Of a stretch of 64,000 nucleotides of DNA, positions 6,157-47,871 are shown in pieces (the stretch's first letter is position 1; each line of letters begins with the position of its first letter). The stretch lies in assembly GCA_000168995.1 (NCBI GenBank), contig AAUX01000001.1, forward strand, positions 124,001-188,000, written 5' to 3'. This DNA is from Methylophilales bacterium HTCC2181 (GTDB taxonomy: Bacteria > Pseudomonadota > Gammaproteobacteria > Burkholderiales > Methylophilaceae). The notes beneath the pieces were generated by a model. The model did no database searches. It was not told the origin of the DNA and saw nothing but the letters and a program-made list of their open reading frames with translations. Position numbers and translations under genes: made by a program.

Positions 6157-6540
6157 TTATTCGCCCGTTACAAGAAAGCCATCTGCCTCAATCAACGAGC
6201 CTTTTGGAAGGGATGCGACTCCGATTGCTGCCCTCGCTGGATAAGGCTCGGAAAAGAATTCTGCCATAATTTCGTTTACTAACGCAAAATGAGATAAATC
6301 AGTAAGATAAATATTTAATTTGACAAGATCGTCTATGGAAGCGTTAGCAGCCTCTATAACAGCTAAGATATTCTTAAAAACTTGATGGATCTGAGCTTCT
6401 ATACCATCGACTAATTCCATCGTGTGTGGATTTAAAGGTATCTGTCCAGACAGAAATATTATATTATTTTTTTTAATTGCTTGCGAATAAGTACCAATAG
6501 CCTTTGGCGCCCTATCAGTGTTGATTATTTCTTTTGTCAT
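6157..6540 (-). CDS. ridA: RidA family 2-iminobutanoate/2-iminopropanoate deaminase
   Basis: 127 aa, the full size of the trimeric RidA fold. The family signature near the C-terminus, [21 protein letters not shown], carries the catalytic arginine (Arg103, equivalent to E. coli Arg105), and the N-terminal GTYSQA and FLSGQIPL motifs are present. RidA hydrolyses reactive enamine/imine intermediates made by PLP enzymes and so protects PLP-dependent metabolism. It sits between spoT and recG, 13 bases after spoT, an order common in beta- and gammaproteobacteria. Confidence 0.93.
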
Positions 6541-6553
6541 TTCATCTCCATGT

Positions 6554-8752
6554 TTATTTTTCTATTTTTAATCGACTAATTCGGCTAACTTTAGTAATTT
6601 TCCTTAAACTTCTTATAACTTCTGATAGATGTAAACGGTTTTTTACCTGCACCACAAAATTAATGTTAACAAAATTGCTGCCATCCGACTCCTCAACACT
6701 AACGTTTTCTATGTTCGATGATGCAACTGCAATTGCAGATGCCATTTTAGCAAGCATGCCGGTCTCATTCGCCACAAGAACCGATAAGCTTACTTTATAT
6801 AGTATGTCAGAGTTAGGTTCCCATTCTACATCGACCCATCGCTCTGGATCTAAATTGTATTTTTTAATAGTTGAGCAATCATGTGTGTGAATAATCAAAC
6901 CTCGATCTTTATTGATATAACCTAAAATAGGGTCGCCCGGTATAGGATGGCAGCAACTTGCAAGCTCAATTGCCATATCATCAGATCCCTTAATAGTAAT
7001 AACATCCAAAAACTTTGATTGACTTTTCGCTTTCTTTACGCCATCCATTATGTTGGTCAGCTGATGCGCAACCATTACATTTACTTTCTTCCCTAATGCA
7101 ATGTCAACCAATACATCGTCTTTTGACTTTAAATGATAATCAAGAACTAATTTATCCCAGTGCTTCTTTTTAATTGAGTCTGGATCGATACGAAAAGCTT
7201 TTAATGCGTTATTCAACATACTATAGCCAAGAATAATCAAATCATTTGACTCTGCATTCCTTAAATAGCCTCTTATCTGAGAGCGTGCCTTACCCGTAAT
7301 GACAAAATTCAACCAGGCAGGATTAGGTTTTGCCAAGGGAGCGGTCATAACTTCTATATGATCTCCAGTTACTATCTCTTCTCTTAAGGGAACAAGTGTT
7401 TGATTAATCTTAGCCGCAACAGCATGATTTCCTACATCACTATGAACAGCATAAGCGAAATCGATCACTGTCGACCCTTTAGGTAAAGCTAAGATTTTAC
7501 CCTTAGGAGTAAACACATAAACCTCGTCAGGAAATAAATCAATTTTAAGATGCTCCAGAAATTCTAGTGAGTCTGATTCGTCAGATTGAATTTCTAATAA
7601 TTTTTTTAACCATTGATTAGTCTGTTGTTGAAGTTGAGTAATATGAGTGTCATTTGTTTTATACAACCAATGAGCAGCTACGCCGGCCTCCGCTAAATTA
7701 TGCATTGATTCAGTTCTTATTTGTACTTCTAAGGGAGTTCCAAATGGTCCAAATAACGTCGTATGCAATGATTGGTAGCCATTAGCTTTTGGTATCGCAA
7801 GATAATCTTTAAATTTACCGGCTATGGGCTTATACAGCGAATGGAGTGCCCCCAAAGCAAGATAACAATCTTTTTCATCTTCCACAATAACCCTAAATGC
7901 ATAGATATCGTTGATCTGAGAAAAAGATGTATGTTTTTTAATCATTTTTCGATGAATGCTTGACTCGTTCTTCTCTCTTCCTGAGACCGTGGCTTTAATC
8001 TTAAAGCCTTTAAGTTTAGTATTTATATCGTCTAGAATTTTTCCAACTACTTCTTTACGATTCCCCCGAGCGGATAAAATTGCTTTATGTATGGTTTTAT
8101 ATCTTAAGGGATGGATATACCTAAAAGCTAGGTCCTCCAGCTCCTGATACATTCTATTAAGTCCCAATCGATTTGCTATAGGGGAATAGATGTCTATAGT
8201 CTCTTGAGCGATACGTAATCTTTTTTCTGGTTTTAAATGTTCTAAGGTCTGCATATTATGCAATCGATCTGCCAGTTTTATTAGGATGACCCTTACATCT
8301 TGAGACATTGCTAAAAGCATTTTTCTGAAGTTTTCTGCCTGAGCATGAGTAGCGTCATTAAAGTGAATTTTATCTAGTTTTGATAAGCCTTCTACAATTT
8401 TTGCTACCTGTGGAGAAAATTGAGTTGCTATATCTTCTAAAGTTACTTGCGTGTCTTCAACGACGTCATGAAGTAAAGCGGCTTGTATGGATGCTGCATC
8501 TAAATGAAATTTAGCTGCTATACATGCGACAGAAACCGGATGGCTAATATAATCTTCACCACTGCTTCTTTTTTGGCCCTCGTGGGCTTTGTTGCTGAGG
8601 CGATATGCCTTCCAAACCAAATCTATTTCTTCTGGCTGAAGATATTCTTTAAGAATGAGAGTTAATCTTGAATCGATGGTGTCGGCAGGTAAGAGCGGGG
8701 GCTGCTCTTGTTGAGATACTTCCGCCGAATTAAATTTAGCGGTTTTAGTCAT
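6554..8752 (-). CDS. spoT: Bifunctional (p)ppGpp synthetase/hydrolase
   Basis: Controls the stringent-response alarmone. The 732-aa protein contains, in order, an HD hydrolase domain (His95-Asp96 in LLHDVVEDT), a synthetase domain ([18 protein letters not shown] and EVQIRT), a TGS domain ([18 protein letters not shown]), a linker and a C-terminal ACT domain ([18 protein letters not shown]). Both catalytic halves look intact, so it should both make and degrade (p)ppGpp. It is downstream of rpoZ and gmk, the classical spoT operon. No separate relA is in the window. Confidence 0.96.
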
Positions 8753-43022: not shown

Positions 43023-43766
43023 CTAAGCGCCAGCATCTGATTTACGTTGTGCAATCATATAAATCATAACACCGAACATGGCTTTGGCTACTATATCCGC
43101 TATTGTGTATCCTACTTGAACTGCAGCATTAACTTCACCTGCAACAAGTCCACCGATACCAAGCATCGGAAGAATAAACACTATTGGATAAAATGTCCAA
43201 GACAATATTGTTAACGTTCTTGCATTGCTTACTAGGCCTTGCACAGCTTTTGGTTGCTTAGAAATTGAAGCTCCAAGACCAGAAACTAAATCTTTAACAA
43301 TATATAAGAACGGAATCATTGCTAGAATCCACCACATCCATCGTGTTCCTACGTCACCTGATATTTCACCAGGATAACCTAGGGCTACCATTAGGGCTGC
43401 AGCAAATGCAAGCTTTGTTCCTTTTGAATAAGTTTCCTCTTTACTCAACCTCATCACAAGAACAAGTTCAAGCAATAATAGTGGAACGGTCAATAACCAG
43501 TCAACATAGCGATATGCGTCATTAAAGGCTGCGCCTGTAGTCTCAACTACTCCATTACTTAAAACGTATGCATGATTGAAGCTATCAAACATTCTTAAAT
43601 AATGGTAAAAAGCGATTAAGCAAACTAAGCCTGACAAAGTTAATGCTGTTTTGTACGCTGGAGCGACTTGAGAGCGCTGAGCGAAAAAGAATACTGTTCC
43701 TGCGCCAAATGTTGCAATGGCAAAGGAAAGCGAATTAAATACTAGATTATAATCTGCTAGTTCCAT
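43023..43766 (-). CDS. Light-driven proton pump rhodopsin (proteorhodopsin/xanthorhodopsin-like)
   Basis: 247 aa, seven-helix retinal protein. Schiff-base lysine Lys228 (DIVAKAMFG); proton acceptor Asp89, Thr93 and donor Glu100 in RYVDWLLTVPLLLLE give the DTE motif of outward proton pumps; His55 is the acceptor's partner in YHYLR. Leu97 matches proteorhodopsin residue 105, so green absorption is expected. The FNDAYRYVDW and GYPGEIS segments resemble Gloeobacter rhodopsin, but Trp146 stands where that protein has the antenna-site Gly178. AGGAGGA ribosome site 5 bases before the ATG. Confidence 0.97.
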   Translation of the reverse strand: MELADYNLVFNSLSFAIATFGAGTVFFFAQRSQVAPAYKTALTLSGLVCLIAFYHYLRMFDSFNHAYVLSNGVVETTGAAFNDAYRYVDWLLTVPLLLLELVLVMRLSKEETYSKGTKLAFAAALMVALGYPGEISGDVGTRWMWWILAMIPFLYIVKDLVSGLGASISKQPKAVQGLVSNARTLTILSWTFYPIVFILPMLGIGGLVAGEVNAAVQVGYTIADIVAKAMFGVMIYMIAQRKSDAGA

Positions 43767-43973: not shown

Positions 43974-44207
43974 TTATTTTGAATATATTTTATATATTAC
44001 ATATAGAAATACAATGGCAGTAGAGCCACTAGAAGAGGCGAGTTGGTTGGTAATAAAAATTAATTGCTCAGATATATTAGATGAACCAACAAATTCTATT
44101 AAAGTCTTTCCTAATAACAGTTCTAATAAAAATGTTAGGTATATTATTAATGCTAATGTTTCTATGACAGCATTTGACCAATTTGTGACTGTTTTTAATA
44201 TAATCAT
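43974..44207 (-). CDS. Small membrane protein, paralogue of the 78-aa protein upstream
   Basis: 77 aa with two hydrophobic segments (about 13-33 and 59-75). It aligns end to end, almost without gaps, with the 78-aa protein at 44279: shared M..L.TV..W, E-T-L..L, L-E-L..G, F-.-G, I-.-N-.-L-.-S, Y-.-I-.-.-.-K. It starts just after the terminator of the 78-aa gene. A GGGTGG sequence precedes the ATG. Much more A+T-rich and less glycine-rich than its copy, so it may be diverging or decaying. Function unknown. Confidence 0.6.
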   Translation of the reverse strand: MIILKTVTNWSNAVIETLALIIYLTFLLELLLGKTLIEFVGSSNISEQLIFITNQLASSSGSTAIVFLYVIYKIYSK

Positions 44208-44220
44208 ATGACCACCCTTT

Positions 44221-44249
44221 TAAAAAAGGGTCTCATGCGAGACCCTTTT
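44221..44249 (-). terminator. Terminator after the 78-aa membrane protein gene
   Basis: AAAAGGGTCTC (44224-44234) pairs with GAGACCCTTTT (44239-44249) around ATGC. On the minus strand the stem ends in a T run. It lies 30 bases after the stop of the 44279-44515 gene, and separates it from the 77-aa paralogue. An A+T-rich region with a second short AAGGG/CCCTT match lies just beyond (44213-44230). Confidence 0.85.
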
Positions 44250-44278
44250 CATATATAAAATTTTAAACAAACTTTATA

Positions 44279-44515
44279 TTACTTACGCGCTTTCCATATT
44301 GAATATAGAACCCAAACTGCGACTAATCCTACAATACCTTGACTACCAAGATTATTGATTAATCCAGTTACTGTTCCAATAACGTCAGGTGTGCCAAAGA
44401 ATGGAACGGCTGCACCTCCCATTAATATTTCAAGAACGATTGATAATGCTAAAAGACTAACAACTGTTTCCGAAAGTCCACCAGCCCACTTTCTTACCGT
44501 AGCTAATACATCCAT
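44279..44515 (-). CDS. Small glycine-rich two-segment membrane protein, unknown
   Basis: 78 aa from the ATG giving MDVLATVRKWAGG; AGGAGA lies 7 bases upstream, much better than the in-frame start at 44554. It has two hydrophobic stretches (about 15-38 and 55-74) joined by GTPDVIGTVTGLINNLGS, and a basic tail KARK. The strong ribosome site, own terminator and long A+T-rich leader suggest an abundant monocistronic transcript. No family with a known function is recognised. Confidence 0.75.
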   Translation of the reverse strand: MDVLATVRKWAGGLSETVVSLLALSIVLEILMGGAAVPFFGTPDVIGTVTGLINNLGSQGIVGLVAVWVLYSIWKARK

Positions 44516-44542
44516 ACCATTTCTCCTGTTGTAATATAAAAT

Positions 44543-44569
44543 AAGTTTAAACATTCATTCTTTAAACTT
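44543..44569. repeat. 9-9-9 inverted repeat in the leader of the 78-aa gene
   Basis: AAGTTTAAA (44543-44551) and TTTAAACTT (44561-44569) are perfect complements around a 9-base spacer. It lies 28 bases upstream of the start of the small membrane protein gene. It could be an RNA hairpin in the leader, or a regulator's operator. Confidence 0.5.
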
Positions 44570-44601: not shown

Positions 44602-44617
44602 ATACTATATATAGTAT
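44602..44617. repeat. 16-bp perfect palindrome upstream of the 78-aa gene
   Basis: ATACTATATATAGTAT is a perfect 16-bp palindrome about 87 bases upstream of the small membrane protein gene, in the 172-base gap before glmS. Its location suits a regulator binding site or promoter-associated element, but A+T-rich sequence makes chance palindromes likely. Confidence 0.35.
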
Positions 44618-44687
44618 ATTTTTATATTTTTTAACTAAATGTAGTTTTTTTAATATAGAATTAAAGGTTCCTGTTAAATAAATGTAT

Positions 44688-46517
44688 TTACTCCACTGTG
44701 ACTGACTTTGCTAAATTCCTTGGTTTATCTACGTCAGTTTTCTTAATTAACGCAACGTGATAAGCAAGTAGCTGCACTGGGATAGCATGCACTATTGGTG
44801 AAAGTACACCGGTATGTCTTGGGGTCCGTATTACTTTTATATCTTCCTGTTGATGAAAATGACTGTCTCCGTCAGCAAATACATATAATATTCCCCCTCG
44901 CGCTTTTACTTCTTGCATATTAGATTTTACTTTCTCTAATAACGAGTCGTTCGGGGCAATCACCACAACTGGCATGTCTTTATCCACCAATGCAAGCGGC
45001 CCATGTTTTAATTCTCCTGCTGGGTAAGCTTCAGCATGAATATATGATATTTCTTTTAACTTTAGCGCTCCTTCTAATGCTATAGGATAGTGAATGCCTC
45101 TTCCTAAAAATAAAGCATTATTTTTCTCTGCAAACTGTTTTGACCACTCTTTTATTTGTGGCTCTAGGTTTAATGCATGTTGAATGTTTCCAGATAATAA
45201 TCTTAATTCTGACAGATACTCTTTTTCCTGTTTTTTTGTAATACGATTATTAATCTTTCCTAGTATTATTGTTAGGACAAACAATGATGCAAGTTGAGTT
45301 GTAAATGCTTTAGTGGAAGCGACCCCAATCTCCATTCCTGCCCTAGTATAGAGTACTAATTGAGACTCTCTGACAATAGCACTATCCTGAACATTGCATA
45401 TTGTCAGCGTTTTTTTATGCCCCATTACTTTTGCATGTTTTAATGACTCAATTGTATCTAACGTTTCCCCTGATTGAGATATAGTAATTACCAACTGATT
45501 TACATTGGGTACTGAAGACCTATAACGGTATTCACTAGCAATTTCAACGTTGGCAGGAATTTTTGCAATGCTTTCAATCCAATATTTTGCTGTAAGACCT
45601 GCATAGTAGCTAGTACCTGCAGCTAATATTAGAATACTGTTTACGTCAGCTAGAGTTTTCTTTGCATTTTTTCCTAAAAGTTCTATATCAAAAGCATTAT
45701 TATCAATAACTGCCTCAATAGTATCTCCGAGCGCTTTTGGTTGTTCATATATTTCTTTCTGCATGAAATGATCATAAGGGCCAAGGTCCATGCTTCCTTC
45801 ATCTAATGAACTTTTATGTAGCTTTCGTTTAGTTGGCTTTAACGATTTATCATATATTTCTAATCCTTCAACTGTTAGGTTAGCTATATCGCCATCTTCT
45901 AAATAAATAATATTTTTTGTTGAGGCAATAATTGCAGAAGCATCTGATGCAATGAAATTTTCTTTTTGTCCAACACCAATTAATAAGGGGCAACCTTTCC
46001 TTGCACAAATTAATTGGTCTTTTTTATCAACGGCAATTACTGCTATTGCAAATGCTCCATCTAGATCTTTTATTGCCAAAAAAGTAGCCTTAAGCAAATC
46101 CTTTGTATCTTCATAATAATAATGAATAAGGTGTGCTATCACCTCTGTATCTGTTTCAGAAGTAAACTCATAACCATATTTTTTTAATCGTTCACTTTGA
46201 GCTTCATGATTTTCAATGATGCCGTTATGAACTACTGCGATTTTATTTCTAGATATATGGGGATGGGCATTACTTTCCGTGACTCCGCCATGAGTTGCCC
46301 ATCTTGTATGTCCTATTCCCAGCAGACCACTAAGGTTTTGATTTTTTAATTTATCTCTAATCGCTGAAACTCTACCTGTCGAACGAACTCTAGTAATTTT
46401 ATCAGAAAGCAAAGCTATGCCAGCTGAATCGTAGCCACGGTACTCTAATCGCTCTAGCCCATTAACTAAAAAGTCGCTAACATTCTTGTATGATATTGCC
46501 CCTACAATTCCACACAT
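44688..46517 (-). CDS. glmS: Glutamine-fructose-6-phosphate aminotransferase (isomerizing)
   Basis: Makes glucosamine-6-phosphate for cell-wall synthesis. The start is the ATG giving MCGIVGAI, so that Cys becomes the N-terminal nucleophile after Met removal; a start at 46547 would block this. 609 aa with N-terminal glutaminase ([10 protein letters not shown]) and two SIS domains ([21 protein letters not shown]), ending [12 protein letters not shown] as in the family. It starts one base after the glmU stop. No glmS ribozyme-like leader is possible in that space. Confidence 0.97.
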
Positions 46518-46518
46518 A

Positions 46519-47871
46519 TTATTTCTTCTCTGGCTTATGCCAGCCAAAAATAGTCTTTTGTTGGGATCTTGAAAGTGTTAATTGATCTTCAGGAGCGTTC
46601 TTGGTTATAGTAGAGCCTGCTCCTATGGTTGCCCCTTTACCGACTATTACTGGAGCAATTAACTGCGAGCTCGACCCTATAAATACGTTATCTTCAATTA
46701 TAGTTTTATGTTTTTTTACTCCATCATAGTTGCAAGTAATTGTTCCTGCTCCAATATTAACATTTTGGCCTATCTCACTATCACCAATGTAACTAAGATG
46801 ATTAATCTTTGATCCTTGGTTAACGGAAGAGTTTTTAATTTCAACAAAATTACCAATATGTACGTTATTTGCCAGTGATGTTCCAGGCCTTAACCTTGCG
46901 TATGGCCCAATACGACTTGATGACCCAACTATACTTGAATCAATATGTGAATAAGCTTCAACAATTGTTCCGTCTTTAATTTCACAATCTTTTAAAACGC
47001 AATAGGGTTTTAAATGAACATTCGCGCCTAACGTCACGGACCCCTCAAAAATACAACCAACATCAATTGTTACATCCGTACCGCATTTCAACTCTCCCCT
47101 TATATCAATTCGGCTAGGGTCAAGAAGGGTTACTCCTTGGCTCATTAATAACTTTGCTTTACTCATTTGTAACCCCCTCTCTATCTCTGCCAAATCTTCT
47201 TTTGAGTTTACTCCAAATACCGATATCTCTTTTTGGGCTAACTGTGAATGAACAGGCAATCCGTCTTTAACAGCAAATTCTACTATATCCGTAAGATAAT
47301 ATTCATTTTGAGAATTGTTATTTGTAATTTGTCCAAGCCAGGCAATTAAATTTTTTGTGTTGCAGGCTATTATTCCTGTATTAATTTCTGTAATTTTTTT
47401 TTCTTCTTTGTTGCAATCTTTCTCTTCTACTATTTTTATAATTTCTTCCTTGTGTCTTACAATTCTCCCATAACCTTCAGGCTTAGTTTTATTACAAGTT
47501 AGAATAGCCAGACCTTCGTCTACTTTGTTGAGTAATTGCTGCAGATCTAATGCATCAATTAATGGAACATCCCCGTATAGTATTAACGTTTTATCTGCAG
47601 AAAGGTGCGATGTTGATTGCAGCACAGCATGTCCAGTGCCTAATTGTTTCTCTTGAAGGCACCATGAAATATTATGGTTAGTAATTGATTTTTTTACGAG
47701 ATCGGTTTTATACCCAGTAATTATAGTTGTTGTTTCTGGATTTAATCGTTGGGAGGTTTCTAATACATGCTGCAAAAGAGGTTTATTAGCTAACGAGTGA
47801 ATAACTTTCGGCAGCTCCGAATGCATTCGAGTGCCTTTACCTGCAGCAAGAATAACTACATTCAATGACAT
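46519..47871 (-). CDS. glmU: Bifunctional N-acetylglucosamine-1-phosphate uridyltransferase / glucosamine-1-phosphate acetyltransferase
   Basis: Makes UDP-GlcNAc. The N-terminal uridyltransferase has LAAGKGTRM and the C-terminal half has the left-handed beta-helix hexapeptides ([22 protein letters not shown]) and [10 protein letters not shown]. 450 aa is full length. Directly upstream of glmS by one base, so consecutive steps of amino-sugar synthesis are linked. It begins after the terminator of the atp operon. Confidence 0.97.

Follow-up and report, generated by a model that had tools for sequence, protein, structure and literature searches.

A small membrane protein gene upstream of rhodopsin in an OM43-type methylotroph seems to be a domesticated phage gene, possibly of holin type

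Just upstream of a rhodopsin gene, the 64,000-nucleotide stretch of the Methylophilales bacterium HTCC2181 genome analyzed here (the window) encodes two small proteins in tandem, which we named SmA and SmB (Table 1). A sequence-only reading had described them as an uncharacterized small membrane system, linked by position to phototrophy and with one copy diverging, which raises the question of where these genes came from, what they do and whether they have anything to do with the rhodopsin.

Table 1 Features of the SmA/SmB locus, in window coordinates
Feature	Position	Strand	Remarks
SmA	44279..44515	(-)	Two-helix membrane protein, 78 aa; cellular member of phage family
SmB	43974..44207	(-)	Diverged tandem paralogue of SmA, 77 aa
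SmA Shine-Dalgarno AGGAG	44523..44527	(-)	Invariant, 13 aligned genus loci
SmA leader hairpin AAGTTTAAA...TTTAAACTT	44543..44569	(-)	Kept across genus
SmA leader palindrome TACTATATATAGTA, operator-like	44603..44616	(-)	Conserved, 13 genus loci aligned
SmA leader second dyad ACTACATTTAGT, operator-like	44634..44645	(-)	Alignment of genus loci
Conserved GGAAC(C/T) box upstream of SmA	44666..44671	(-)	13 genus loci aligned
SmA/SmB intergenic hairpin, 12-bp, terminator-like	44223..44250	(-)	Folding
Rhodopsin gene, PF01036	43023..43766	(-)	Neighbor, outside SmA family
glmS	44688..46547	(-)	SmA upstream neighbor; named from sequence; start is that of the ORF tool

A search of the genome with SmA recovered only SmA itself and SmB (28% identity, E = 7e-8), and the two open frames align almost without gaps, so the tandem pair is evidently paralogous beyond chance, as first proposed. 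Family HMMs agreed, with SmB matching model A1 (E = 6e-25), of which it is itself a member, and model A4 (E = 9e-11), which was built without SmB and with the SmB-like copy of locus L004. Hydropathy profiles showed the two hydrophobic regions that had been noticed in each protein, and AlphaFold2 (40 family rows) predicted a helical hairpin for SmA, with helices spanning residues 2–32 and 45–77 (mean pLDDT 82.6, pTM 0.47). Besides the window genome, loci L004 and L005 also have SmB-like tandem copies. The idea that one copy is diverging was borne out by the very long branch of SmB in the tree; dN/dS between the L004 and L005 copies was 0.12. SmB looks decayed in L003, where glmS is broken too; the assemblies of L003 and L023 look error-prone, with broken glmS and, in L023, a frameshifted SmA. 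The stop of SmB lies 207 bases from the rhodopsin start at 43766, in agreement with the distance given earlier.

The signals around SmA also survived comparison across the genus. The strong ribosome site reported for SmA is an AGGAG located 7 nt 5' of the ATG, and the alignment of 13 genus loci revealed, ahead of it, the GGAAC(C/T) box, two CTATATATAGT-like palindromes and the hairpin AAGTTTAAA-loop-TTTAAACTT, so that the inverted repeats described in the leader are indeed conserved. Single-sequence folding of the leader was not clearly better than that of shuffled sequences at three loci (z = -0.85 for the SmA of the window, -0.89 and -1.62). Between SmA and SmB lies a 12-bp terminator-like hairpin (dG -24.4, z = -5.9 for an 81-nt stretch), in line with the claim that SmA has its own terminator and that SmB follows it, although a simple terminator scan did not list this hairpin. 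The leader hairpin motif occurs at a single place in the genome and, allowing zero mismatches, in 23 of 333 loci, all of them bacterial; its absence from the phage loci examined led us to reject a leader common to host and phage, and a known RNA element was rejected for lack of an Rfam match. From the alignment, the box and two palindromes (44603–44671) look like a regulated promoter, in which the GGAAC(C/T) box is a possible -35 element of an alternative sigma factor.

We then asked how far SmA is tied to rhodopsin. Among 31 genomes of the OM43-type genus of the window, 26 carry SmA, confirming that homologues exist in related genomes, and the five without it are 59–85% complete. Rhodopsin was also found in 26 of the 31, and the two co-occur in 24. 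Synteny was split: SmA adjoins rhodopsin (about 0.23–0.55 kb) in 12 of these 24 genomes, as the sequence-only reading would have it, but in the other 12 the genes lie on separate contigs or far apart (for example, ~532 kb in G011 and ~398 kb in G027). G005 and G018 (one of them 92% complete) have SmA without rhodopsin, G003 and G015 have rhodopsin without SmA, and G010, G024 and G025 have neither. Genes other than rhodopsin lie downstream of SmA in 12 loci inspected, none of the phage SmA loci examined contains a rhodopsin, and the relatives that decide the matter are phage genes. A positional link to phototrophy was therefore rejected as a rule, and rhodopsin proximity, seen in only half of the genomes that have the two together, is a poor guide to SmA function.

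The commoner neighbor was glmS, located upstream of SmA in 18 of 22 loci: 16 have it at 0.2–1.5 kb, and L014 and L019 have it at 2.7 kb and 5.8 kb, respectively. The DNA examined for the remaining four loci did not include glmS and, for L021, covered 3.9 kb upstream. In the relevant parts of a published account, glmS is a tycheposon border in OM43 and Methylopumilus, with the OM43 glmS tycheposon placed at 0.01–0.1 Mb (PMC10872708). In five genomes assembled as single contigs, SmA lies at 1.25–1.29 Mb, and in G011 it lies at 0.82 Mb; these positions differ from the island coordinates, which disfavors a place inside the tycheposon, and SmA may lie just outside. Plasmid cargo was rejected, with no plasmid match for SmA. 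As a separate observation on this neighborhood, 13 genomes (G009, G011, G015–G017, G019–G022, G026–G028 and G030) encode a second, diverged rhodopsin (35–37% identity), which lies beside the first in 12 of the 13; SmA adjoins rhodopsin in 0 of the 13.

Beyond the genus, SmA is rare in bacteria. Across the Methylophilaceae, 29 of 187 genomes gave matches, 26 of them in the genus of the window and three in genus g16; the latter were weak, contained internal stops (E = 0.003–0.006) and were excluded from the count, leaving 0 of 156 other family genomes with a credible SmA. Only 3 of 300 genomes of the order (the window genome, one congener and G192) and 1 of 398 in a draw from the phylum (the window genome) were positive, and SmA as a common cellular family was rejected on these counts. 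Scanning 84,980 species with a sequence pattern, which detects close SmA relatives only, returned 22 loci, whose records are labeled Methylophilaceae, Nitrosomonadales, Burkholderiales, Methylobacillus or beta proteobacterium; HMM searches of bacterial genomes were confined to the phylum of the window genome. In G192 (68% complete), the SmA relative lies on a contig that, by frame reading, would also encode a sigma factor, and it stands beside a second small membrane protein. This G192 pair (L171, 1471–2017) has the SmA relative first and the second protein next, in tandem as in the window. The dN/dS of host SmA orthologues ranged from 0 to 0.12 when both came from one lineage and from 0.11 to 0.17 across lineages, with dS saturated (> 1) in several pairs, and these low ratios indicate that SmA is kept by purifying selection.

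Searches of viral sequences gave a different picture. SmA matched 65 loci in IMG/VR at 52–68% identity, nearly all at full length, and wider pattern scans gave 404/494, at least 555/600 and at least 474/600 matching stretches, counts that refer to stretches rather than contigs as the same gene may match twice. Phage contigs with SmA reached 342 kb among the matches listed. The resulting phage set comprised 99 distinct proteins of ~70–81 aa in 21 clusters at 70% identity; residues F39, G60 and G63 were invariant across 40 diverse family rows, and the examples inspected had two hydrophobic regions and basic ends. Surrounding genes were those of the T4 superfamily, including portal (PHROG_213, E = 1e-106), baseplate hub (PHROG_150), DnaB-type helicase and gp46, the last with a best cultured match of 51% identity in PA5oct-like jumbo phages. 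In the two largest clusters, SmA lies between the baseplate-hub gene and gp46. Judged from sequence, the SmA family is an undescribed one of mainly uncultured T4-superfamily phages.

The profile searches proposed earlier thus had two outcomes: family HMMs matched SmB, the genus genomes and phage proteins, and SmA had no match among Pfam, NCBIfam or PHROG models, holin models included, in keeping with its description as uncharacterized. The phage copies scanned likewise matched nothing in Pfam or PHROG, and neither a PDB sequence search nor Foldseek fold searches of the PDB and a viral fold library matched SmA. No SmA homologue was detected by tblastn of four family members against 50,697 cultured-phage records (low-complexity masking left the SmA query unaffected and lowered sensitivity for two of the four) or by HMM search of MIJ3, Atu_ph07, 121Q, Phosso, P-SSM2, HTVC008M and Melnitz. 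Literature searches on OM43 SmA expression and on domesticated or host-encoded holins gave no lead, and the gene is unmentioned in the available sections of PMC5120137, PMC5069720 and PMC10580990.

Phylogeny was consistent with transfer from phage to cell, which is the simpler direction because the family is broad in phages and is found in one bacterial genus. In a 54-row tree, from which SmB, G192, fragments and most of the near-identical phage sequences were omitted, the 17 host SmA proteins formed a single group (83/81; recovered in 86% of 200 bootstrap trees), with the phage row L132 as its sister, nested inside starred branches (96/81 and 99/93) that also hold phages. The SmA trees are based on 78 columns, have no fixed root and omit the L023 protein. 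In a 120-row tree, host rows did not form one group, so a single host acquisition is favored rather than shown. Overall, SmA very probably comes from a phage and seems to be a domesticated phage gene rather than a light-related gene evolved by the bacterium; the phage origin is well supported, and the function is what we infer.

Gene neighborhoods in phages point to lysis in some clusters. A lysis gene (endolysin, cell-wall hydrolase or spanin) occurs within 4 kb of SmA in 7 of 21 phage clusters and in the contig G027:C2, a count that was made without equal-sized control regions and is descriptive because its seven queries were drawn from SmA neighbors. The same queries found none in the flanks examined of the other 14 clusters, which include the two largest; the T4 holin gene stands alone too. 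A PHROG scan of 128 neighbors from 15 of the 21 clusters gave three known spanin matches and, by itself, no clear enrichment, with neighbor families given as the best 25 of 147. Weak XhlA/holin-like matches in L304 and the bare partner gene in L248 were left out of the lysis count.

In L314 and L320, two relatives of the cultured OM43 phage Melnitz, SmA opens a spanin operon. Each contig matches 13 of 16 tested Melnitz proteins with order kept (35–83% identity for L314), and in each SmA is followed by a 53-aa membrane protein, an Rz-like spanin (phrog_739 in L314) and a homologue of the Melnitz lipoprotein spanin (phrog_812). SmA lies between homologues of Mel_31 and Mel_32, where Melnitz has a gap of 12 nt and no SmA; the Melnitz order then runs Mel_32 (53 aa, hydrophobic), Mel_33, then Mel_34, an Rz-like spanin (phrog_739, E = 5e-17), and Mel_35, a spanin of phrog_812 (E = 5e-15). 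The 53-aa Mel_32-type protein matched only four Melnitz records among cultured phages. Melnitz gp32 (QZI94765.1, 53 aa, annotated hypothetical), whose homologue is directly downstream of SmA in both relatives, differs from SmA in being a partner gene and no SmA homologue, and Melnitz lacks SmA. Separately, Mel_34 and Mel_35 are overlapping Rz/Rz1-type spanin genes that are annotated as hypothetical (L335 5505–6240, corresponding to MZ577097 24173–24908). In its available text, the Melnitz paper contains no word starting with 'holin'; it puts forward a curli pore as the analogue of a pinholin (PMC9004378).

Other clusters resemble this arrangement to varying degrees. L286 and L288 have a similar order, with SmA near a spanin-type gene (phrog_812, E = 1.5e-6), and L306 has a weak spanin match nearby (phrog_739, E = 8e-4); its relative L303 was assigned by likeness to L306, as the Rz-like protein of L303 had no spanin match of its own. 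An M15 endolysin lies 1.3–1.5 kb upstream of SmA in L284 and L322 (phrog_465, E = 7e-46 for L284). In G027:C2, 105 bp separate the SmA homologue from a downstream gene for a SleB-type hydrolase (PF07486, E = 3e-12), and homologues of this hydrolase are found 1.0–3.7 kb from SmA in L321, L139 and L132/L134/L136. A late-promoter-like TAAATA, mostly 38–61 nt upstream, precedes 60 of the 99 distinct phage proteins; it was present in 8 of 21 cluster representatives versus a shuffled mean of 2.2 (0 of 1,000 shuffles as high), with 5 of 21 for a reversed-pattern control.

Our preferred reading, to which we assign a probability of roughly 0.4, is that SmA is a domesticated phage gene whose relatives are holin-type proteins in phages and which modulates lysis in the cell. 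The holin-type role is suggested by the small size, two helices, basic ends, lysis neighbors in some clusters and TAAATA motif. The phage protein would be made late, inserted with both termini inside (an inferred topology) and oligomerize, and its oligomers would depolarize the inner membrane or open it, allowing endolysin and spanins to act. A gene for such a ~77-aa helical-hairpin inner-membrane protein would have been acquired, most simply once, by one methylotroph genus near glmS and then fixed. As a free, fully active holin would kill the cell, the cellular copy is likelier to be, or to have become, a lysis modulator, which by mixing with holin-type proteins of an infecting phage would mistime or block lysis and lower phage yield. 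The odds that the phage family acts in lysis are about even, and that cellular SmA modulates phage lysis is somewhat doubtful. Against a holin stands the conservation of SmA, which is higher than expected for a holin or an arms-race gene.

Two known systems help to frame this proposal. LysF1a of F1 mycobacteriophages is described, in the part of the source consulted, as a class II holin or pinholin of 88 aa with two transmembrane segments and both termini inside (PMC13056207). SmA resembles class II holins and pinholins in size, in two hydrophobic helices and a basic tail, in the spanin or cell-wall-hydrolase genes near some copies and in the second small membrane protein of some loci; unlike them, it matches no holin model, lacks recognized lysis neighbors in most clusters and is fixed in a bacterial genus, its holin activity being putative. 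On the side of the cell, a possible working analogy is LidI of the Vibrio cholerae satellite PLE, a 66-aa membrane protein that, according to the relevant sections of PMC7182436, collapses lysis inhibition and causes no depolarization alone. LidI is a small membrane protein that acts for the defender during a phage infection, as cellular SmA would, but it comes from a satellite gene (66 or 121 aa in that source, with no homology shown), whereas SmA is chromosomal and genus-wide.

Several other explanations could account for parts of this evidence. T4 Imm and Sp, small membrane proteins of T4-type phages, act in superinfection exclusion, and SmA could be an inner-membrane protein of this sort that blocks DNA entry by later phages and is kept by the cell as a constitutive defense. 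We consider this unlikely: SmA shares the small, two-helix form and the T4-type origin with such proteins, adjoins the baseplate-hub gene in the largest clusters and has, in cells, a strong ribosome site and conserved leader, but its genome context differs from that of Imm and Sp (compared through the PHROG and Pfam scans), a late-promoter-like motif suits an early exclusion gene poorly, spanins, hydrolases and endolysins are neighbors in the seven clusters, dN/dS is very low for an arms-race gene, and Melnitz infects H5P1, a host that putatively carries SmA. It is rather improbable that SmA is instead an energy or membrane-physiology helper, which would belong to a conserved machine of the inner membrane as a small subunit or regulate it, serving phages as an auxiliary gene and cells as a growth gene. 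Strong conservation in both phage and host, the single-gene unit with strong signals and the 12 genomes with adjacent rhodopsin agree with a helper, but rhodopsin is not adjacent in as many genomes and is missing from the phage loci examined, and SmA was not found in the other cells searched except G192, which implies no widely conserved cellular use.

The lysis context of some phage copies, together with a regulated-looking leader (two palindromes and the GGAAC box), would also suit programmed lysis or vesicle release, in which the cell would employ the phage holin-type protein itself to lyse part of the population or release membrane, on the model of CidA/LrgA or DLP12. Such a use is distinctly improbable given that frame reading recognized no endolysin or spanin beside the cellular gene, that a strong ribosome site would be risky and that altruistic lysis seems of little benefit to streamlined cells with a free-living habit. 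Least of all do we expect SmA to be passive cargo, a phage gene left near glmS by recombination and expressed without a selected role. Recombination is plausible there because glmS is a reported tycheposon border, and the diverging SmB has a decayed look in L003, but cargo is largely refuted by the purifying selection on SmA and its presence in most genus genomes, and the OM43 island coordinates in the passages at hand do not obviously include SmA (PMC10872708).

The host of Melnitz bears on the lysis-modulator reading. H5P1, which we take to be G011, putatively carries SmA, as G011 does, and a phage without SmA in a host with SmA fits poisoning and host supply alike, in a single pair. A long shot would be that a genus-wide, holin-type host gene sets the outcome of infection, with Melnitz lacking its own copy in an otherwise syntenic lysis operon either because host SmA poisons it or because the phage now depends on the protein supplied by the host. 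The lysis clock of OM43-phage infections would then be partly host-encoded. In a bacterium that fixed a gene of this kind, the timing of phage lysis would be under host control at the level of a genus. The SmA family itself is a candidate set of unrecognized holins of T4-superfamily phages, because it has many environmental members in IMG/VR yet no library match.

Inspection of the phage contigs yielded further observations. In L063, L064, L031 and L128, SmA is followed by roughly 500 nt (about 6230–6750 or 8230–8730) that contain no clear genes and in which no tRNA was found, and the jumbo phage MIJ3 has an unannotated gap of 1.5 kb (L173 15017–16532), with no homologue found, close to where SmA stands in related phages. 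A 221-kb phage contig encodes a small c-type cytochrome (PF13442; L136 4197–4625) 3 kb from SmA; a recent OM43 origin of this gene was rejected, as matches were only 30–41% identical. Finally, G027:C2 (L336, L339–L343) is an 89.5-kb phage-like contig in an OM43 bin that carries, along with the SmA homologue and SleB hydrolase, a glutamine synthetase-like gene and, by frame reading, sufB/sufC-like genes and a terminase.
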